64,000 bases of DNA from Seramator thermalis. Its GTDB lineage: Bacteria; Bacteroidota; Bacteroidia; Bacteroidales; Dysgonomonadaceae. Shown here piece after piece: positions 14,218-62,490 of this stretch. Position 1 is the first letter of the stretch, and each line of letters opens with the position of its first letter. Made by a program: the position numbers and the translations under genes. Under the pieces are notes generated by a model. That model had not been told where the DNA came from. It did not search any database and saw nothing but the letters and a program-made list of their open reading frames with translations. The stretch spans positions 62,001-126,000 of the forward strand of contig NZ_RXHS01000002.1 in assembly GCF_004138125.1 (NCBI RefSeq), read 5' to 3'.

Positions 14218-16162
14218 ATCGAGTAGACTGCCCCGCCAGCCTTGGCTGACGGGGAGAGCCTCTCACACCACTGTACGTACGGTTCACGTATACAGCGGTT
14301 CGTTAAGAAATGGAGCAATTTTCTGATAATAAGTAAACATAGGTTCGTAACCGCGTTGTTGCAGACGTTCCACCGTGATGGTGGTTTTCAAAATAGGGCT
14401 ACAGGCGACCGCCCATGTACCCATTCGGCTACGGCTGTGGCTGTATGCGTGTTCAAGGTCAACGCCCAAACGTATCAGGTTTTTCCGTCTTCGTTCGGAT
14501 TTCTTCCATTGTTTCCAGATACAGCAACGTAACCGGTTACGCACCCACCCATCCACATCTTTGAGTTTTTCCTGGATACTTGCCATGCGGTAGTATTGAA
14601 GCCAGCCTCGCTGTACTTCTTTCAGTTTGTGGATACGCTCATCGAAACTGGCGGGTGTGGTTTTTCGGGTGATGGCTTTGAGTTTTAGTTTCAGGTTTTT
14701 CCATCCTTTGCCGCTTACCACCAGCTGGTATTTGCCTTTTTCCCCCTTTTTGTAAGTGGGCACAAAACCATATCCTAATAGCGAAAAGTTTACGGGGCGA
14801 CGGATTCCACTTTTCTCCCGATTAATAGGCAGGTGTAGTTTACTCTTTAGAAAGAGAAAGATCTCGTTGCCTGTTTTGCGGGCTTGCCATTGGCTTTTGC
14901 AATAAATGCTAAAGTCGTCAGCATAGCGGACAGACTTTAATCCACGTCTGTCTAATTCTTTATCCAATTCATCTAACATGATATTGGAGAGAATCGGGCT
15001 CAGCGGACTGCCCTGTGGTACTCCTTTTCGGCGTTTGACTAACTTCCCGTTGATTAAAATCGGCGCTCGCAGCCATTTGCGGATAAGACGCAGCGTAAGC
15101 GGGCATTTTACCTTGCGATACAACAATTGCAGCAAAATGCAGTGGTCTACTTCGTCAAAGAAGCTCTTCAGGTCAATGTCTACTATATCCTGATAACCAT
15201 TGTTTATATACTCCAATGCTTTGAGTACCGCTTGCAGGGCATTCTTATTCGGGCGAAATCCATAACTGTAATCCTCAAATTCCATTTCGAACCGGTTGGC
15301 TAAAACTTGCCCTACGGCTTGTTGAAGCATTCGGTCAACCACGGTAGGCACACCTAAAAGACGTGTCTTCCCATTTCCCTTGGGTATCTCTACCCCCAAA
15401 ATGGGTTGTGGCAAGTAAGTGCCATTTAACAATGATTGCCCTATACTTTCCCTGTTCTTTGTCAGGTGGTCGTATAGTTCGCTTACAGGCATCCGGTCAA
15501 CTCCTGCCGAACCTTTGTTCTGCCTGACCTGTTGCAATGCACGCATCATGTTGTGACGGTTAATCACTTGCTCGATCAATTCCATTTCGTTTTTGTTTGC
15601 TCATTTAATCATCTTCTCTTGCCCTGTTTCGCTTGCTACAGGCTATTTCATTGCTGAAAATCCATGTCGCATTAAAAACTTCTTAACGTTCAGTCCTTCA
15701 TTACGTTCGTGAGACCTCCGACTCTCTGGATTTCTATCACTTGCCGGCTCGTTTTCCGTAATTACTATGACCTCGGCTGACTTCTCATTACATTTTACTG
15801 CTTAGAGATCTCCCCCGGTAAGAGCTTTTTCCTTCCTCCAATCCCTGCGGTATCTACATATCTGTCCACAAACTACCTTTTGGGCGTTACAATGATGTGG
15901 TTGCTTACCCAAGACAATTATGCCTCATATACCGTTTCTGTTCGTCAGTACCGGATTTTGCAGTCTCGCTTCCTTCACTGCTGTCGTCACCAACAACCAG
16001 CATGCGACTTGCTAATGCTTCGGGCACGACCCCGTGCATAAGGGACTTGCACCCCCTGGAAAAATACACCTGCTTAGAGCATTGTTTAACCAAAATTATT
16101 TGTAATTTTGAAATTTTACTGTTGCTTGCAGCAGGTGCGCTCTGCTCATGCAGGGCGCACAC
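14218..16162 (-). mobile_element. group II intron 1 (probably class C), minus strand
   Basis: About 1945 bp. The 5' end is placed at 16162 where the minus strand reads GTGTGCGCCC, matching the GTGYG start of group II introns. The 3' end is placed at 14218 after CTACTCGAT, preceded by a domain V/VI-like region (14220-14285) with GTGAACCGTACGTAC. The second intron in the window ends in the same CTACTCGAT. The RT gene lies inside with long structured flanks. The insertion point is directly 3' of a palindrome (16165-16274), as class C introns prefer. Boundaries are read from consensus and may be off by a few bases. Confidence 0.8.
14284..15585 (-). CDS. ltrA: group II intron reverse transcriptase/maturase
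   Basis: 433 residues. RT motifs are in order: LLGVPTVVDRMLQQAVGQVL, DYSYGFRPNKNALQA, VDIDLKSFFDEVDH, KGVPQGSPLSPILSNIML and the catalytic VRYADDFSIYC. A maturase (thumb/X) region follows, with RGWLQYYRMASIQEKLKDVDGW. There is no HNH endonuclease domain, as expected for class C introns. The protein would splice the intron RNA and copy it into new sites. It appears full length and intact. Confidence 0.95.
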   Translation of the reverse strand: MELIEQVINRHNMMRALQQVRQNKGSAGVDRMPVSELYDHLTKNRESIGQSLLNGTYLPQPILGVEIPKGNGKTRLLGVPTVVDRMLQQAVGQVLANRFEMEFEDYSYGFRPNKNALQAVLKALEYINNGYQDIVDIDLKSFFDEVDHCILLQLLYRKVKCPLTLRLIRKWLRAPILINGKLVKRRKGVPQGSPLSPILSNIMLDELDKELDRRGLKSVRYADDFSIYCKSQWQARKTGNEIFLFLKSKLHLPINREKSGIRRPVNFSLLGYGFVPTYKKGEKGKYQLVVSGKGWKNLKLKLKAITRKTTPASFDERIHKLKEVQRGWLQYYRMASIQEKLKDVDGWVRNRLRCCIWKQWKKSERRRKNLIRLGVDLEHAYSHSRSRMGTWAVACSPILKTTITVERLQQRGYEPMFTYYQKIAPFLNEPLYT

Positions 16163-23669: not shown

Positions 23670-25583
23670 ATCGAGTAGGTAGGGGGATTACTCCCCCGCC
23701 CTCTCACACCACCCGGCTTGCTCTCGCACCGGGCGGTTTCTTTTAATTGTTTAATCTCTCGTAATTTAATGTGAGGTTGTATAGACCTACTGATTCAAAC
23801 CATTTATTGCTAAGAGCCTGATGTGTTTGGGGGCAACCTGACTTGCGCCAGTGTCCTTTACCCGAGAGAGCTAATATCCAGCTTTGCCAGCTATCAACTC
23901 CCCGACTTTCAAGGAAACGTTGCAAGGTGATTACCCTTTTGCACTGCTTTAACCTGTAGCACCGAAGTTTTCTGCGTATCCATGAATCGAGATTCTTTAA
24001 TAAGCCTTTACATCGGGCATAACGGAAGTAGTTCAGCCAGCCTCGCATAAGGGGTTGCAATTCGGCAATTATTTGCTCAAACTTCACGCCTCTGTTACGT
24101 TTGGTTATACTGCGTACTTTGTCCTTAAAGCGTTCAATGCTTTGCTTTGCTATGGTTAGATAACCATCGATTTGGATGGTGTGACCTAAGAATTTGGTTT
24201 GAAACACTTCGCAAACCTGACTCTTGTCTCTGTTGACAAGTAGTTTTAGTTTGCTATCGATAAAGTTACTTACCGATTCCATTACTCTCTCGCCTGCCAT
24301 TTGGCTGCGTACGTAGATGTTGCAATCGTCAGCATATCGAACAAATTTGTGTCCTCGTTTCTCTAACTCTTTATCCAGTTCATCAAGAACTATGTTGGAT
24401 AATAAGGGGGAGAGAGGACTGCCTTGGGGCGTCCCTTCGATGCGTTGGCTGACAATACCCCCTGTCATGATTCCGCTCTGAAGGTATTTGCGTATCAGCT
24501 TCAAAAGGGTTTTATCCCCAATTTTCTGTGATAACATATACATCAGACGGTCATGATTGACAACGTCAAAGAATGTCTTTAAGTCGATATCCACAACTAT
24601 CATCCTGCCTGTCTGTACGTATTCGCAACCTTTCTTTAGTGCATCATGTGCACTTCGCTGAGGACGGAATCCGTAACTATAGTCAGAAAAATCTCTTTCA
24701 TAGAGAGGGCTTAAGACTTGGGAAATGGCTTGCTGGATAACCCTGTCGGTTACCGTAGGAATGCCCAGCCTGCGTTTACCGCCGTTAGGCTTGGGAATCT
24801 CAACCTGCTTAACGCCTTGGGGAATATATGTTCCCTCACGGAGTTGTGATAGTAAGGATTCGCCATGAGTATGATACCACGTGGCAAATTCATCTACTTT
24901 CATCTGGTCTATTCCTGCTACACCTTTGTTGCGCTTTACCTGTTTGTAGGCTTGGGTGATATTGCTGTGACACAATACCGCTCCCATTAAATCAAGGGTT
25001 AAGGCTCGTTCTTGTTCGCCTGCTTCTTCTACTTGCAACGCCTTTGATGTATTAGCTCGGCTTACGGCTTCACTATCTACACAAGGGCATACAGAATCCT
25101 TGACTGCTAATGTGAACAGGTCTGACTGGTATGCTGTAACTTGCTGTCGCTTCATAGAACAAATTTTGAACTAACTGCTCCTTAAATTAAAAGATTCAGA
25201 CCTTCTTTTATGAGTGTGCACTTCATAAAATACTATGTCTTCTGCTGACTTCTTATAAGACTTAGAATTACATCGCTATAAGTCCTGCACTGTTGGTGCC
25301 TCTTATAAGACCTCTCGGGATAAGATATTAAACTTTCACTGCGTTCTGCCTGATTTACTCATAAGAGTTACGGTTGAAGTTTGGGCGTTCCCAATCCATT
25401 GCTCGGTTGCCCTCCCAAATGAGCCTTATATCAGATTTCTGTGCGTCAGAACCTCAGTTTTGCTGATGGCTTCTTTCAGATTTGCAGTTGCCCGCAACAC
25501 CCTTGCCAGTCGCTAATGTTTCCTATCAACTCGGCACATACAGGAACTTACATCCTGCAAGCTTAATACCATGCCCGACATAC
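23670..25583 (-). mobile_element. group II intron 2 (probably class C), minus strand
   Basis: About 1914 bp. On the minus strand it starts GTATGTCGGGC directly after the TTTTTT of an intrinsic terminator (25584-25616) and ends CTACTCGAT at 23670, the same end as intron 1. The domain V/VI region lies at 23672-23742. Insertion right after a terminator T-run is the known habit of class C introns. The 5' part (25156-25583) is non-coding structured RNA. Confidence 0.82.
23743..25155 (-). CDS. ltrA: group II intron reverse transcriptase/maturase
   Basis: 470 residues with the RT motif series: LGIPTVTDRVIQQAISQVLSP, SYGFRPQRSAHDALKKG, VDIDLKTFFDVVNHDR, EGTPQGSPLSPLLSNIVL and the catalytic VRYADDCNIYV. 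A maturase segment follows (MRGWLNYFRYARCKGLLKNLD). No endonuclease domain is seen. The N-terminal 45 residues extend beyond those of the intron 1 protein. Only moderate identity to the intron 1 protein, so the two introns arrived independently rather than by local duplication. Confidence 0.95.
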   Translation of the reverse strand: MKRQQVTAYQSDLFTLAVKDSVCPCVDSEAVSRANTSKALQVEEAGEQERALTLDLMGAVLCHSNITQAYKQVKRNKGVAGIDQMKVDEFATWYHTHGESLLSQLREGTYIPQGVKQVEIPKPNGGKRRLGIPTVTDRVIQQAISQVLSPLYERDFSDYSYGFRPQRSAHDALKKGCEYVQTGRMIVVDIDLKTFFDVVNHDRLMYMLSQKIGDKTLLKLIRKYLQSGIMTGGIVSQRIEGTPQGSPLSPLLSNIVLDELDKELEKRGHKFVRYADDCNIYVRSQMAGERVMESVSNFIDSKLKLLVNRDKSQVCEVFQTKFLGHTIQIDGYLTIAKQSIERFKDKVRSITKRNRGVKFEQIIAELQPLMRGWLNYFRYARCKGLLKNLDSWIRRKLRCYRLKQCKRVITLQRFLESRGVDSWQSWILALSGKGHWRKSGCPQTHQALSNKWFESVGLYNLTLNYERLNN

Positions 25584-53105: not shown

Positions 53106-53936
53106 ATGGAAAATCCGACAAAAGAAGAAATATTAAAAGCAGTAAATGATTCAGGATATTTATTTGAGCAGGAAATAGGAACGATATTAGAAAGAAACAA
53201 CTTCTATATCCAACCGAATGTTGCTTTTATTGATATAGATGAAGAAAAGTCGAGAGAAATAGACGTTATGGGTTATAAACGTTTCTTTTATGACGAAGAA
53301 AAGAAAATATCCATAGGTGTTAGAATTTTATGTGAATGTAAAAACAACACTAATCCATTTGTTTTTATTTGTCGGAATAAAAATGATGTAGATAAGAATT
53401 ACTCTCCACCCAATTTTTTATTCCCGCACAAAGAATATAAAAAACCTATTGAAGGAAAGCCTAATTCATTTTACACATTCACTGGGTTTAAATATTTTAA
53501 CATTGAAACGATTTACCCTTATTCAACTGAAAATGCAAAAGCTACTCAGTTCTGCAAAATAATAAGAAAAGGGAAAGATTGGTCTGCTCTTCATGATGGC
53601 ATTTATGACAATCTTCTTATTCCAATGATTAAATGCTTAGATTTTTATAAAAAAGAGGATTCTTCGATGATTAGAAATACAGAATGGAAAAACTACGTTG
53701 TATATTACCCTATTATCGTTTTAAACTCTGATTTATACTCAATAAATGCCAATGTAGATACAGAAACTATAAATAAAATAGACTTCGTTCATTTTACAAG
53801 AGAAATAAATTCCAAGAAATTGAAAGATAGATATTTAGTTGATTTTGTAACAAAAGAAGGTTTGCAAAATTATATCGAAAATAATATTTCCTACTTCATG
53901 GATATGTTTGTTAAAAAAATGACAGAGTCTGTATAG
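53106..53936 (+). CDS. PD-(D/E)XK nuclease-like protein
   Basis: 276 residues, no signal or membrane segment. The first 80 residues show the pattern of the PD-(D/E)XK fold: helix GYLFEQEIGTILERNNF, strand with Asp (REIDVMGY, D53), then RILCECKNNTNPFVFI with E77-C-K79 as the ExK motif. The remaining 195 residues are not recognised; they contain FYTFTGFKYFNIETIYPYS and a Tyr/Asn-rich helical end. AT-rich compared with the tra genes, so it was acquired separately. A caspase-like gene follows after 27 bases. It could be a DNA- or RNA-cleaving effector. The catalytic reading is from motif only. Confidence 0.7.
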   Translation: MENPTKEEILKAVNDSGYLFEQEIGTILERNNFYIQPNVAFIDIDEEKSREIDVMGYKRFFYDEEKKISIGVRILCECKNNTNPFVFICRNKNDVDKNYSPPNFLFPHKEYKKPIEGKPNSFYTFTGFKYFNIETIYPYSTENAKATQFCKIIRKGKDWSALHDGIYDNLLIPMIKCLDFYKKEDSSMIRNTEWKNYVVYYPIIVLNSDLYSINANVDTETINKIDFVHFTREINSKKLKDRYLVDFVTKEGLQNYIENNISYFMDMFVKKMTESV

Positions 53937-53963
53937 TTTAATTTTTAATTCATTACATGATCA

Positions 53964-55406
53964 ATGAAAACACTCGCATTAATCATAGGAAACAACGAAT
54001 ATCACGAGGGAGCAAAATTAGCGAATGCGATTAATGATGCGACCTCAATTAATCAGGTTTTTGAAAGACTTGGATTTGATGTAATTTCAAAGTACGATTG
54101 CACAGCAAGTGATTGTTCTGATTTACTTGCAGATTTTGAAAATAAAATAGCAAACTACGATGCTTCTATTTTCTATTTTGCAGGACATGGATATGAGTTA
54201 GATGGAGAAAATTATTTAGCTTCGATTGATTGTCAAATTCCCCCTTCCGATAAATATCATGCTGGGCGAAACAGTATTAGATTAAGTGAAATTTTAGATA
54301 TATACAAGAAAAATACTAATAAAATTAACATTGCAATAATTGATGCATGCAGAAGGGCTTTTGATAGAGGCGGAAATGCTACTTTAGCTCCAATGTTTGC
54401 ACCAAAAGGTACTCTTCTCGCTTTTTCCACATCTCCTAATGAGGGAGCAAGCGATGAGGGTTTTGAGGGGCATAGCGTTTATACAGGTGCACTCTTAAAA
54501 TATATTGGGAGAGAACATCTTTCTGTAGAAGAATTATTCAAAAAAGTCCGCAAAACTGTTTATGCGTTAAGTGAAGGAAAGCGGACAACATGGGAACATA
54601 CTTCGTTGATTAATGATTACTATTTCAATACAGGACAATTAGTTCATTCTATTGCAATTCCATATGATGATAAGGTTGTTAAAGATATTGATTATGGAGA
54701 AACTGATGAGTTTGGCAATCTTATAATGGATGTAAGGTCACAGAATTGGAACAAACAAAACCCAGCATTAGACAAACTATTATCAATACCTGCCAGTCAA
54801 TTAAACAAAAATCAATTATTTATATTAGGGAGAAATATTCTTCAAGCAAGTGGTGCTGCTCGCAGTGCGGTTAATTTTATGGAATCAATAAGCACAAACA
54901 TATCAAAATACTCTATAGCTGGGGAAAATCATCTTTTAAATGGAATTCTTTTTGAGATATATTTTAATGCACATGGCGAATTTAGAAAGGAGAAAACAAA
55001 GAATTATTTTTTGCAAAAGATATTGGCATTAAGAAAAAGCGTAAATTTAAAATCATCGTTTGATTTTATTTCCAAGTTATTAGAAAATACGAATTACAAA
55101 TTGATATACATACCTAAATCATCAGATGAATATATAGACATTAATGTTGTTTCATCAACACACAACACCACAAATGTAATAGGCGAAGATATTGCGTATC
55201 AGGTAATAAGTAGCATTACCTATGACGGATTAGATATTACAAAAAAAATAGAGAATTATAATGTTACTGGACTTAACGAAAATGGATTAAAGCAGGCACT
55301 TGCTAATTTTTTTACAGCACCAGAAGGATTAATCCAAATTCACAGCAATTTAGAATTAAAAAAAATAGCCTTTATAAAGGCTATAACAGAAGAAATAGAT
55401 TGGTAG
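53964..55406 (+). CDS. caspase-like (peptidase C14) protein with unknown C-terminal domain
   Basis: 480 residues. The caspase p20-like part (1 to about 220) starts LALIIGNNEYHEGAKLANAINDATSINQVFERLGFDV, carries the catalytic His in YFAGHGYELDG (H75) and the Cys in IAIIDACRRAF (C129), and continues through LLAFSTSPNEGASD and HSVYTGALLKYI. The last 250 residues form an unrecognised domain with helical and beta parts (DINVVSSTHNTTNVIGEDIAYQVISSITYDG). Bacterial caspase-like proteases often act in abortive infection. Its promoter-sharing partner is the nuclease-like gene, so a protease-nuclease pair is likely. AT-rich. Confidence 0.87.
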   Translation: MKTLALIIGNNEYHEGAKLANAINDATSINQVFERLGFDVISKYDCTASDCSDLLADFENKIANYDASIFYFAGHGYELDGENYLASIDCQIPPSDKYHAGRNSIRLSEILDIYKKNTNKINIAIIDACRRAFDRGGNATLAPMFAPKGTLLAFSTSPNEGASDEGFEGHSVYTGALLKYIGREHLSVEELFKKVRKTVYALSEGKRTTWEHTSLINDYYFNTGQLVHSIAIPYDDKVVKDIDYGETDEFGNLIMDVRSQNWNKQNPALDKLLSIPASQLNKNQLFILGRNILQASGAARSAVNFMESISTNISKYSIAGENHLLNGILFEIYFNAHGEFRKEKTKNYFLQKILALRKSVNLKSSFDFISKLLENTNYKLIYIPKSSDEYIDINVVSSTHNTTNVIGEDIAYQVISSITYDGLDITKKIENYNVTGLNENGLKQALANFFTAPEGLIQIHSNLELKKIAFIKAITEEIDW

Positions 55407-58278: not shown

Positions 58279-58513
58279 TATCTTTGCGAAGTAAAACATG
58301 ATAGTATAATTGTAGAAATCAAGATTCTACAATTCATATATATAACATAACGTTCGCTGAACGTCTCGATATAGAAAACTGGTAATTTTCAATCGGAAGA
58401 GGCTGATGCGCAATGTTCATGCTATACATTGTATAGCGTGGACTTGCCTGTTTCTTCCAAGGGCGTACCAGTGCCTCTATGTCGGAATGGTGTGAGTTCC
58501 ACGCTTCTTTTTT
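58279..58513 (+). promoter_or_regulatory. promoter and attenuator-like leader of the 58566 gene
   Basis: TATCTTTG (58279-58286) is a good -7 element. The roughly 270-base leader contains alternative pairings. GGAAGAGGC (58395-58403) can pair with the segment ending TTCTTCC (58446-58458), enclosing CATGCTATAC/GTATAGCGTG (58419-58440). Alternatively GCGTGGA (58436-58442) pairs with TCCACGC (58498-58504), which is followed by TTCTTTTTT as in an intrinsic terminator. The two structures share bases and exclude each other. A 7-codon frame lies in the first hairpin. The direction of control is not clear from the sequence. Confidence 0.6.
58413..58436 (+). CDS. candidate leader peptide MFMLYIV
   Basis: ATG TTC ATG CTA TAC ATT GTA TAG. 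The stop codon lies at the junction of the two competing hairpins, so a ribosome here would block one of them. This is the usual layout of leader peptides that control resistance genes such as erm or tetQ by attenuation. Only position and structure support it. Confidence 0.45.
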   Translation: MFMLYIV

Positions 58514-58565
58514 GTCTGGCGAATGTTCTTAAAAGGAGAATCATTAAATAGAAAGGATTAAGGAC

Positions 58566-59099
58566 ATGAGAAAATTGAAATTGTACATCACGGCATCCTA
58601 TGATGGTTTTATCGCTCCGCCTGACGGCGATTTAGATTGGTTAATCGGCTATCCCGTTCCCTCAAAAGAGAATCATAAAAATTTTGTAGATTCGGTCGAT
58701 ACCGTTATAATTGGCGGTAGAACTTACTGCAATATGCGCATAATGGACATTCTCTGGCCATACGGGGATAAAAGTGTCCATGTTGTTACCCGCAATCCGA
58801 TGATGGAAAAGGAAGGCGTGAATTTTATCACGGAAAATGTCATTAAAGCCATTTCTAAATTAAAAAAAGAAAACGGAAAGGACATTTGGCTCGTTGGCGG
58901 TGCGGAACTGACAGCAATGCTGCTTGATGGCGACTTGATTGATGAAATGATAATTACGTATATTCCCGAAACGCTTGAACAGGGAATATCTTTATTTACC
59001 GATAAACCCGAAGAAATGGGCTGGGCGTTGAAAGAGGAAATTCCATACGAAAATAATGCCGTTAGAAAAACGTATCAAAAGACGCTGCAATACGCTTGA
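58566..59099 (+). CDS. RibD C-terminal/dihydrofolate reductase-like protein
   Basis: 177 residues. The N-terminus LKLYITASYDGFIAPPDGDLDWL, VDTVIIGGRTYCNM in the middle and IWLVGGAELTAMLLDGDLIDEMIITYIPETLEQGISLF near the end are the NADPH-binding and fold signatures of the RibD_C/DHFR-like family, usual length about 175. It is probably an NADPH-dependent reductase. The substrate is unknown, and true trimethoprim-resistant DHFR function is not implied. Expression probably depends on the leader described above. Confidence 0.87.
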   Translation: MRKLKLYITASYDGFIAPPDGDLDWLIGYPVPSKENHKNFVDSVDTVIIGGRTYCNMRIMDILWPYGDKSVHVVTRNPMMEKEGVNFITENVIKAISKLKKENGKDIWLVGGAELTAMLLDGDLIDEMIITYIPETLEQGISLFTDKPEEMGWALKEEIPYENNAVRKTYQKTLQYA

Positions 59100-59159: not shown

Positions 59160-59693
59160 TTATTTGGCTCTTGTTTTTCCGTAACATTTACTTCCGTCGG
59201 GAGATAAATAGAAATCAAATGTTTCTTCAACGAGAGTACCCGCAAGTTGGATTGAATACTTACACCGTACTATTTTCGCAAGTACATCACTCGCATTCCG
59301 GTTGTCGTATCCCCGCAGGTTATCCGGCGCAAGGTTTTTAAGCGAATCTATACGGACATTCATCACGGCAATATCAGCATTATACTTGTCAATATCGCTC
59401 TGTTTTTTGGTTTTAGCCAATAGTTCTTCACTCATTTTCTTGGCAAGTGAAACACGGTCAATGATAAGCTGCTTATCTTTCCTAAATTCATCGGTAAGAT
59501 AAGTAATACTGTCGGCAACTATAACAGTACCATGTTCGTTCATCTCAACAATTTTAAAATTGAGATTTTCTTTTGTGTCGCTGCCTTTCAGTAGATAATC
59601 AGTAATGGGTTTTTCATAGTTGCTCTTTGACGAATTAGAACCACCGCAGGAAACCATTAAAACCGCAATGAATAAATAGATTGTATTTTTCAT
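59160..59693 (-). CDS. hypothetical lipoprotein
   Basis: 177 residues. Lipobox LFIAVLMVSCGGS with the lipid Cys at residue 16. The mature part is helical and charged (DEFRKDKQLIIDRVSLAKKMSEELLAKTKKQSDIDKYNADIAVMNVRIDSLKNLA), ending FYLSPDGSKCYGK. No family recognised. It lies alone between the reductase gene and the RhuM-like gene. Confidence 0.75.
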   Translation of the reverse strand: MKNTIYLFIAVLMVSCGGSNSSKSNYEKPITDYLLKGSDTKENLNFKIVEMNEHGTVIVADSITYLTDEFRKDKQLIIDRVSLAKKMSEELLAKTKKQSDIDKYNADIAVMNVRIDSLKNLAPDNLRGYDNRNASDVLAKIVRCKYSIQLAGTLVEETFDFYLSPDGSKCYGKTRAK

Positions 59694-60669: not shown

Positions 60670-62118
60670 TTATTGATTAACAGCTAACTTTTGTACTTTC
60701 ATCATCGGTTTGAATGAGAATGCTTCTTCTTTTTCAAACGTATTAGCCCAAAGAGAAGATTTTTCTTCTTCTGAAAGGCTTTGCCACATAAAGGAAATAC
60801 GTTTCACTCTTTCAGGGTCATTTGAAAGGGTAGTAGGGAGATTGAATAACGCCATTTTTTCGCCCAAAGAAAGGCACTCGAAATGTTTATCCAAATTAGA
60901 TTTGGACTTAACCTTTTTTTCTTCCATTTTTTCAGCAAATGAAGCCATATCATTGCTGACCTTAACATCTGTAATTCTTGCGTAGATTTGGGTCGTTTTG
61001 ATATTCGTATGCCCCAACATTTTTGATACGCTTTCGATAGATACGCCTTTGGTCAGCGTAAGGGTCGCAAACGTATGTCTTGCAAGGTGATAGCTTAAAT
61101 TTTTATCAATTCCACAGACTGTTCCGATTTCTTTCAGGTATTCATTCATTTTTTGGTTGCTCATGACAGGAAGTACCTTTTCGTCCGGCAATTTGCCTGA
61201 ATATTTTTCTATAATTTGTTTTGGGGTATCAAGTAGGGGGACATTATAATTAACACCCGTTTTTTCCCGTTTTCCCATAACCCACAATCCGTCATCGAAA
61301 GAAGTACGGATGTTGGATTGGCGCAAGTTCTTTACATCTATATAAGCAAGTCCCGTGAAGCAACTGAAAATAAATATGTCTCTTACCCTTTCAAGGCGTT
61401 CGGAAGCGAATTTCTTTTGCATGATAATATCTATCTCCTGCTGTGTTAGGTAGCCACGATCTGTTTTCTTGAAACGTATCTTGAAGTTGGCAAATGGGTC
61501 AATATGAATCCAACCGTTGTTTTTTGCCATGATAATGATAGTACGGAAACGCTGAAGGAACTTTGCGGTGGTATTTTCCTTGCAGTTGCAGGTGGTCATC
61601 AAGTAAATCTCAAAATTGTGCAGGAACATATGATTTACCTCTTTTAAGGAAATGTCCGATACATGATAATACTCCTTAATGAAGCCTTCCATACGTTTAT
61701 AAGCGACTTCATATTTTTGGAGCGTTTCTTTGGATTTGCTTATGCCGACCAATTTAGCAACATCGTCATTGTGGCGTTGGAATAATTCAAGGACAGTTTG
61801 GTGCTTTACTTCAATGCCCAAAAAGATATTCTTAACTCTTTCGGCATTGACGTTATTTTCCTTCGTCTGCAATTCGTGATATACATTATGAATACTTGTT
61901 TTTATGGTATTCAGTAAGGTATTGACTTCAACGGCTTCGTTAGATTTGCCGATTGCGACACCTGCTTTTGCATCCCAAATATCGGGATTGACATTTACTT
62001 TCGTGTTAAAGCGGCACGGTTCTCCGTCGATGGTAATGCGACACATAACAGGATAAGTGCCGTCTGCTCTCTTTTTGTCTTTCTTTACATAGAAAAGAAT
62101 GCGAAATGTACTTTTCAT
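60670..62118 (-). CDS. int: IntDOT-like tyrosine integrase of the ICE
   Basis: 482 residues from ATG 62118; an upstream ATG would add 20 residues. It has an N-terminal arm-binding domain (STFRILFYVKKDKKRADGTYPVMCRITIDG), a SAM-like core-binding domain and the catalytic domain. HxxR is in YHLARHTFATLTL (about residue 343) and the Tyr in MLGHTNIKTTQIYARI (about 378). The first catalytic Arg is missing: the segment reads FTGLAYIDVKNL near residue 258. IntDOT of CTnDOT also lacks this Arg, so it is a family trait rather than damage. The gene lies at the junction next to tRNA-Asp. Confidence 0.93.
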   Translation of the reverse strand: MKSTFRILFYVKKDKKRADGTYPVMCRITIDGEPCRFNTKVNVNPDIWDAKAGVAIGKSNEAVEVNTLLNTIKTSIHNVYHELQTKENNVNAERVKNIFLGIEVKHQTVLELFQRHNDDVAKLVGISKSKETLQKYEVAYKRMEGFIKEYYHVSDISLKEVNHMFLHNFEIYLMTTCNCKENTTAKFLQRFRTIIIMAKNNGWIHIDPFANFKIRFKKTDRGYLTQQEIDIIMQKKFASERLERVRDIFIFSCFTGLAYIDVKNLRQSNIRTSFDDGLWVMGKREKTGVNYNVPLLDTPKQIIEKYSGKLPDEKVLPVMSNQKMNEYLKEIGTVCGIDKNLSYHLARHTFATLTLTKGVSIESVSKMLGHTNIKTTQIYARITDVKVSNDMASFAEKMEEKKVKSKSNLDKHFECLSLGEKMALFNLPTTLSNDPERVKRISFMWQSLSEEEKSSLWANTFEKEEAFSFKPMMKVQKLAVNQ

Positions 62119-62138
62119 AAACTCATTTTTTAATGTTA

Positions 62139-62146
62139 CAAAATTA
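62139..62146 (-). promoter_or_regulatory. -7 element of the integrase gene
   Basis: On the minus strand TAATTTTG (62146-62139) matches TAnnTTTG, 20 bp upstream of the integrase start at 62118. Confidence 0.55.
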
Positions 62147-62180
62147 CTGATAACTATCTCAAAATGAATTTTATGCACTG

Positions 62181-62283
62181 TGCCAAATCAGGACAACTCC
62201 CTGCCAATTCTGGACAAACTGTACCCCCTTCGCTTCGATTAACTGTACCCCCTTGCGTTTTTTCGGAAAGGGGGTACAGTTTA
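62181..62283. repeat. repeat cluster at the ICE end: candidate integrase arm/att region
   Basis: Two direct repeats TGCCAAATCAGGACAA (62181-62196) and TGCCAATTCTGGACAA (62202-62217) lie 21 bp apart. They are followed by AACTGTACCCCCTT at 62218 and 62241 (23 bp apart) and the inverted copy AAGGGGGTACAGTT (62268-62281). The cluster lies between the integrase and the tRNA-Asp gene, where arm-type integrase or excisionase sites and the crossover are expected. A remnant of an IS end is an alternative. The exact crossover cannot be seen. Confidence 0.5.
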
Positions 62284-62347
62284 GGTTAGCTGCTTTGTCG
62301 TATTTTGTCTTTTTCTTGGCTTTCGACTAAGACAAAATAAATAGAAA

Positions 62348-62380
62348 AAGCCCCTCATATTCACTGAATATGAGGGGCTT
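62348..62380. terminator. bidirectional terminator after tRNA-Asp
   Basis: AAGCCCCTCATATTCA pairs perfectly with TGAATATGAGGGGCTT, with T-rich flanks on both strands (TTTTTCTATTT on the minus strand). It lies 37 bp after the tRNA 3' end. Confidence 0.9.
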
Positions 62381-62416
62381 GTCTTACTTTTGGCTGCTCT
62401 TGTCTTAGAGCCTCTG

Positions 62417-62490
62417 CGGTATGGACGGGACTCGAACCCGCGACCCCCTGCGTGACAGGCAGGTATTCTAACCAGCTGAACTACCACACC
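62417..62490 (-). tRNA. tRNA-Asp (GTC)
   Basis: 74 bases folding as a complete cloverleaf: acceptor GGTGTGG/CCATACC, anticodon arm CCTGC-CTGTCAC-GCAGG with anticodon GTC, T arm CGGGTTCGAGTCCCG, discriminator G. CCA is not encoded. Its 3' end points to the ICE integrase, which makes its downstream region the likely insertion site. Confidence 0.96.

Follow-up and report, generated by a model that had tools for sequence, protein, structure and literature searches.

A leader RNA upstream of a RibD_C/DHFR-like reductase gene in Seramator thermalis, probably one copy of a Bacteroidota-wide family of transcription attenuators

To our knowledge, few classes of cis-regulatory RNA are known in Bacteroidota. 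Among described systems, trp-type attenuators come with four segments whose 1:2, 2:3 and 3:4 pairings exclude one another, with a U-run after the 3:4 helix, and with a cis-acting leader that has its own promoter; the leader family presented here has all these traits in common with them. It departs from the trp type in having no conserved leader peptide, in carrying an extra conserved helix (P1) that crosses 1:2 and 3:4, and in preceding genes that are not tied to one pathway. The leaders of tetQ (CTnDOT) and of the erm type also form alternative structures in Bacteroides mobile elements, as is the case here, but they work via a stalled leader peptide, in tetQ with an effect on translation (PMC5418344); our family, in contrast, keeps a U-run and not a peptide, and the gene that it precedes in our window is no known resistance gene. 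Transcription-terminating riboswitches, including the candidate “orphan” classes, share with it a conserved aptamer-like core with pseudoknot potential, an expression platform, covarying helices and a place upstream of genes; the genes behind this family are too mixed to point to a ligand.

Conserved RNAs have been described in Bacteroidota before. A transcriptome study of F. psychrophilum reports 64 structured 5′ regions and Flavo-1 (PMC9723704), and a screen of the human microbiome lists thousands of unnamed RNA candidates (PMC8040213), among which our leader family could be. The Flavo-1 (RF01705), Bacteroidales-1 and Bacteroid-trp motifs are likewise conserved Bacteroidota RNAs, and none of them matched any scanned copy of our leader. 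More generally, no family of Rfam 15 matches the leader copy of the window or the scanned homologous copies at gathering or relaxed thresholds, the low-score rows being chance, and no description of this leader family was found in the main texts of the searchable open-access literature; the family is apparently undescribed so far. As a multi-copy family in gut, soil and aquatic members of the phylum, with a switch backed by covariation, it offers a testable way into what Bacteroidota sense.

The window, i.e., the whole stretch of 64,000 nucleotides that we analysed, contains one leader at 58337-58513, which is the single copy in the Seramator thermalis genome; the start codon of the 177-aa ORF that follows is at 58566, giving a leader of about 270 nt. 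The initial annotation had reported this length, the frame MFMLYIV and a T-run, and we read all three likewise, the T-run extending to 58513. The parts of the leader are as follows:

58279-58286, + strand, -7 promoter box TATCTTTG, read from the sequence
58340-58368, + strand, segment 1 (5′ segment), pairs with segment 2
58350-58364, small hairpin ACGUUCGCUGAACGU in segment 1
58363-58367, GUCUC in segment 1
58368-58384, + strand, P1 5′ strand, pairs with 58466-58483; made up of GAUAUAG (58368-58374), a conserved AAA(A) loop and ACUGGUA (58378-58384)
58393-58403, + strand, P2 5′ strand, ends in GAGGC (58399-58403)
58408-58424, + strand, P3 5′ strand GCGCAAUGUUCAUGCUA, makes up segment 2 together with the P2 5′ strand
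58408-58447, hairpin, read from the sequence
58413-58436, + strand, frame MFMLYIV-stop (ATG TTC ATG CTA TAC ATT GTA TAG), inside the P3 hairpin
58434-58447, + strand, P3 3′ strand, which is segment 3, common to the putative antiterminator P3 and to the terminator-like helix
58450-58460, + strand, P2 3′ strand
58466-58483, + strand, P1 3′ strand UACCAGU-GCCU-CUAUGUC, carries a conserved UACCAGUACCUC-type core
58496-58505, + strand, segment 4 GUUCCACGCU, partner of segment 3 in the terminator-like helix
58505-58513, + strand, U-run (T-run) TTCTTTTTT after segment 4
58566-59099, + strand, RibD_C/DHFR-like reductase gene, 177 aa

Our main reading, to which we give a probability of about 0.72, is that this leader acts as a cis-acting transcription attenuator and belongs to an apparently undescribed RNA family that spans the Bacteroidota. 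It is built on what was computed across the copies: conservation, covariation of the helices, co-evolution of the 1:2, 2:3 and 3:4 pairings, the promoter box, the U-run and the orientation to the gene. In the window itself, the predicted RNA fold of 58300-58570 is far more stable than that of dinucleotide shuffles (z = -5.48, 0/200 as low), and the strand AGCGUGGAC (58435-58443) is common to two exclusive pairings, with either the upstream GUUCAUGCU (P3) or the downstream GUUCCACGCU, just before the T-run. The GAGGC that closes the P2 5′ strand has an alternative partner as well, the GUCUC of segment 1, and GUCUC:GAGGC is 94.3% paired. The -7 consensus of Bacteroidota is TAnnTTTG. The good promoter announced by the initial annotation holds for the -7 box TATCTTTG, with no clear -33 box beside it; from this -7 box, transcription would start at about 58292.

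The same annotation had taken the seven-codon frame for a drug-sensing leader peptide. Such ribosome-mediated attenuation, in which an antibiotic-stalled ribosome on MFMLYIV would shift the pairing and free the gene, has some appeal, as the frame lies across the P3 5′ strand, so that a ribosome on it would release the shared strand, and as the ATG is kept in 32/38 close copies with a similar N-terminal MFMLY. The rest of the frame does not follow, however: only the window and one other copy (L016) combine an ATG with a codon-7 stop, a further copy (L003) has that stop but no ATG, and 17 of the 38 close copies have no stop before the leader end. Distant copies have GCUCACGC at the AUG site, the AUG being absent, and a family-wide search found no reading frame conserved across the leader copies. 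In flavobacterial copies, the promoter box lies 4-17 nt ahead of the model start, so close that segment 1 would be at the extreme 5′ end of the transcript, with no space for an upstream frame. As for the MFMLY similarity in close copies, it is accounted for by the pairing of the P3 5′ strand with the P3 3′ strand. The conserved short translated frame by which a leader-peptide attenuator is recognised was thus not found in this leader, and we rejected the peptide as the control since neither its start, nor its stop, nor its frame is conserved; the peptide is, in our reading, incidental, and a ribosome-mediated mechanism looks highly improbable. One has to be cautious with short AUG frames in conserved hairpins, which should not be taken as drug-sensing leader peptides.

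Conservation of the RNA structure was assessed on a MAFFT alignment of 38 close copies, in which RNAalifold found 41 pairs, 23 of them with compensatory changes. Once the 5′ hairpin is added, the structure has 46 pairs, with 94.8% of cells paired and double-sided changes in 23/46 pairs vs 14.9 in shuffles; its covariation beats 500/500 shuffles and all slid controls. Among 81 copies found by pattern, 39 pairs show double-sided changes. Each helix has its own profile: the outer part of P1 is variable and its inner part is ACUGG:CCAGU, with double-sided changes in 6/7 of the variable pairs; P2 is variable, with double-sided changes in 9/10 pairs; P3 is conserved and 96.5% paired over the 38 copies. 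The internal loops of P1 are unpaired and strongly conserved (GAAAA opposite ACCUC, AAUUU opposite GGGU), so that a conserved unpaired core is combined with an expression platform ahead of genes, as in riboswitches. Past the T-run, in the region of 58514-58560, GGCGAAC/GCGAGC occurs in many copies and complements the loop sequence GUUCGC of the 5′ hairpin, and GUGAA pairs with UUCAC in copies; a further contact is possible there.

The initial annotation had also described two mutually exclusive hairpins, one of them followed by a T-run. The exclusive pairings are indeed conserved far beyond chance; the local hairpin beside the T-run, GUGUG/CACGC, is not, falling to 1/5 pairs in some relatives, and we rejected it as the conserved terminator. 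Unlike this local hairpin, the long-range 3:4 pairing is conserved, with 98.3% of cells paired over the 38 copies and C-G to U-A double changes in 6. Distant copies show complementarity between their 5′ segment and the P2/P3 5′ strand, which extends over some 12-18 pairs.

In order to compare the alternative pairings without any need for alignment columns, we calculated, in 104 non-redundant copies, the duplex energy of each copy's own segments vs foreign segments. Own duplexes were far better for 1:2 (z -18.9), 2:3 (z -16.1) and 3:4 (z -17.9), while the control pairs showed no co-evolution (1:4, z -0.7; 2:4, +2.1; 1:3, +2.8). The result was the same when the comparison was limited to the 8 nearest relatives, with p-values of 4.6e-12 for 1:2, 6.2e-10 for 2:3 and 2.9e-12 for 3:4, against 0.8 to 0.98 for 1:4, 2:4 and 1:3. 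In the window, the duplexes reach -17.9 kcal/mol for 1:2 (29/1000 shuffles as low), -25.2 kcal/mol for 2:3 and -19.1 kcal/mol for 3:4 (2/1000 shuffles as low). As 1:2, 2:3 and 3:4 co-evolve while the controls stay flat, the logic is that of an attenuator, with 1:2 and 3:4 set against 2:3; these mutually exclusive pairings are kept by co-evolution and the U-run comes directly after the 3:4 helix, two traits expected of a four-segment transcription attenuator.

The mechanism that we propose would run along an RNA ordered as segment 1, P1 5′ strand, segment 2, segment 3, P1 3′ strand, segment 4, U-run and gene. Read-through would correspond to a state with segments 2 and 3 paired (P2, P3) inside P1 and segment 4 left free, in which RNA polymerase would proceed; in the stop state, 1:2 pairing would release segment 3 for a 3:4 helix abutting the U-run, a putative intrinsic terminator by which transcription would end. 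No translated leader peptide would take part. P1 could last through both states, be it nested or in a pseudoknot or kissing contact, and would be the likeliest site where a small ligand, an ion or a protein tips the balance, i.e., the presumed sensor. In a nested-only comparison, which gives pseudoknots no credit and from which the default state was not chosen, the window leader folds 16 kcal/mol better into the nested P1-P2-P3 structure than with the terminator forced. With such a gap, the stop state requires kinetic control, unless P1 persists through a pseudoknot or kissing contact; a P1 kept in this form would be expected to shrink the gap. The terminator loop, of about 50 nt, is unusually long.

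The surroundings of the leader copies speak for an action in cis. A TAnnTTTG box is present within 130 nt upstream in 110/142 copies vs 9.8% of shuffles, the exact box being absent from about a quarter of copies, and a U-run (six or more U within 8 nt) ends 138/144 copies. With genes taken from ORF calls and not from curated annotation, the downstream gene is codirectional at 139/145 places, a count that includes some loci fetched twice (binomial p 3e-34), and the orientation of the upstream gene is random (35/74). The median distance from leader to gene is 52 nt, most genes lying within 130 nt, and the range goes from about 0 to hundreds of nt. At loci L172, L188, L189, L197, L200 and other flavobacterial ones, a small gene for an HTH-type DNA-binding protein starts about 105-120 nt upstream on the opposite strand; it was seen at many copies preceding SusC/TonB receptors or ECF sigma factors.

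As nearly every copy has a promoter and a U-run of its own, and as a genome can contain up to 18 copies (in the scan that scored 64 candidates for each genome), the leader might also be thought of as an independent trans-acting small RNA that merely tends to precede genes, all the more so as the next ORF begins 200-400 nt or more past the U-run in part of the flavobacterial copies. We regard this as improbable: the 139 codirectional places, mostly at 130 nt or less, would go unexplained, a co-evolving 1:2/2:3/3:4 switch would be superfluous in a plain small RNA, and homologous RibD_C/DHFR-like ORFs stand behind 47 of the 58 close copies examined. Slightly more improbable still is that the structures govern translation rather than transcription, with an incidental U-run. 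Bacteroides tetQ is controlled in this way (PMC5418344, citing Wang 2005) and the window gene starts only about 50 nt past the U-run; against it, segment 4 is followed by a U-run in 138/144 copies, and the wide range of distances to the gene leaves no fixed link to a ribosome-binding site. Transcription attenuation remains the preferred reading.

The reductase-like nature of the downstream gene, already proposed in the initial annotation, is supported. The window protein matches RibD_C in Pfam (E 2.7e-10) and 3jtw in a sequence search of the PDB (E 2e-22), and its AlphaFold model (pTM 0.76) also has 3jtw as best PDB match (E 3e-13), so that Pfam, PDB sequence and fold all place it in the RibD_C/DHFR-like superfamily; with the reductases 3jtw, YyaP (2gd9) and SacH/SfcH (7xh2), it has both fold and family match in common. 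A dN/dS of 0.11-0.16 indicates that the reductase is under purifying selection. It is far from the trimethoprim-resistance Dfr proteins, scoring 19-21 bits with the NCBIfam exception models vs cut-offs of 325-360. Its structural neighbour SacH/SfcH is, going by the title of the entry, a DHFR-like protein that belongs to safracin biosynthesis and is complexed with safracin A; by analogy, a drug-modifying role for the window reductase is conceivable. Behind the divergent leader copies L093-L096, shortened RibD_C-like proteins of about 140 aa were observed.

The recurrence of the RibD_C/DHFR-like gene behind close copies indicates that the pairing of leader and gene is long-standing. The remaining close copies are broken, or stand ahead of a DJ-1/PfpI-like protein (labelled by inspection of the sequence) or of a 79-aa ORF with a lipoprotein similar to that at 59160-59693 of the window. 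Neither of the alternatives in the initial annotation, an unrecognised resistance or stress gene or a leader once attached to another gene, is a simple fit: the link with the reductase is old, yet across the whole family the RNA stands before many genes that are unrelated to one another. As the initial annotation had advised, we looked for the leader ahead of other genes, and found it before TonB receptors, lipoproteins, ECF sigma factors and response regulators. The Pfam tally of 80 downstream proteins, which deliberately omits most RibD_C copies, gives TonB plug 5, LRR_5 3, response regulator 3, RibD_C 3, ECF sigma 3, PKD 3 and others. These 80 proteins have no obvious common theme, so no shared ligand is evident, and no known resistance gene is among the 25 Pfam families listed for the other downstream genes. 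A move of the leader from a known resistance gene was considered, and the downstream genes give it no support.

Such a device would link mobile-element cargo (the RibD_C reductase) with TonB receptors, lipoproteins and ECF sigma factors. One step further, the family may be a new phylum-wide class of riboswitch-like attenuators, with trp-type switching around a sensor helix P1, that reads one global cellular signal to set the expression of surface, regulatory and mobile-element genes, the reductase included; we propose this tentatively, at a little less than even odds. Unrelated downstream genes would also suit a global regulator, and the strongly conserved internal loops of P1 could be bound by a protein: in the same four-segment attenuator, the sensor would then be a trans-acting RNA-binding protein (e.g., NusG-type or another antiterminator) instead of a small ligand. 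This variant is less likely than not in our opinion, as a non-systematic inspection of loci showed no candidate protein that co-occurs with the leader.

The attenuator family is broadly distributed. A DNA search finds the leader at 70-91% identity in many genomes; within the same family (Dysgonomonadaceae), it is present in 27/101 genomes by DNA, with up to 7 copies. The covariance model R1 has matches in 123/393 Bacteroidales genomes and, across the phylum, in 52/395 genomes, and a pattern scan names Flavobacterium, Chryseobacterium, Elizabethkingia, Sphingobacterium, Mucilaginibacter, Bacteroides, Parabacteroides, Dysgonomonas and, among others, Ignavibacteria. One Bacillota MAG matches, with a Bacteroides-like leader and a RibD gene on a 3.1-kb contig that is probably mis-binned; as a negative control, 0/198 further Bacillota genomes had a model match. 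Plasmid records contain the leader only in few Bacteroidales elements, ahead of a “dihydrofolate reductase family protein”. In phages, only chance 25-nt matches to the leader were found, and spread by phage was rejected on this ground.

Some copies have an unusual arrangement. Tandem leaders are seen at L201 (2082-2264 and 2330-2503, minus strand), about 66 nt apart and ahead of a response-regulator gene, and at L059 (969-1149 and 1478-1654, minus strand), about 330 nt apart. The leaders of L042, L048, L054 and L057 are interrupted inside the RNA by unrelated sequence; in L057, the 3′ part of the leader stands alone, fused behind an integrase-like coding sequence and still ahead of a RibD_C gene.

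In the window, leader and reductase look like cargo of an integrated mobile element: an integrase is encoded at 60670-62178 beside a tRNA-Asp, and this tyrosine integrase and tRNA-Asp (60670-62490) are likely the attachment end of the element. Elsewhere in the window, we observed two group II intron D1-D4 matches (15693-15996 and 25199-25497, minus strand) and, at 53106-55406, a caspase-fold (Peptidase_C14) gene behind an ORF that matches Sec7 marginally.
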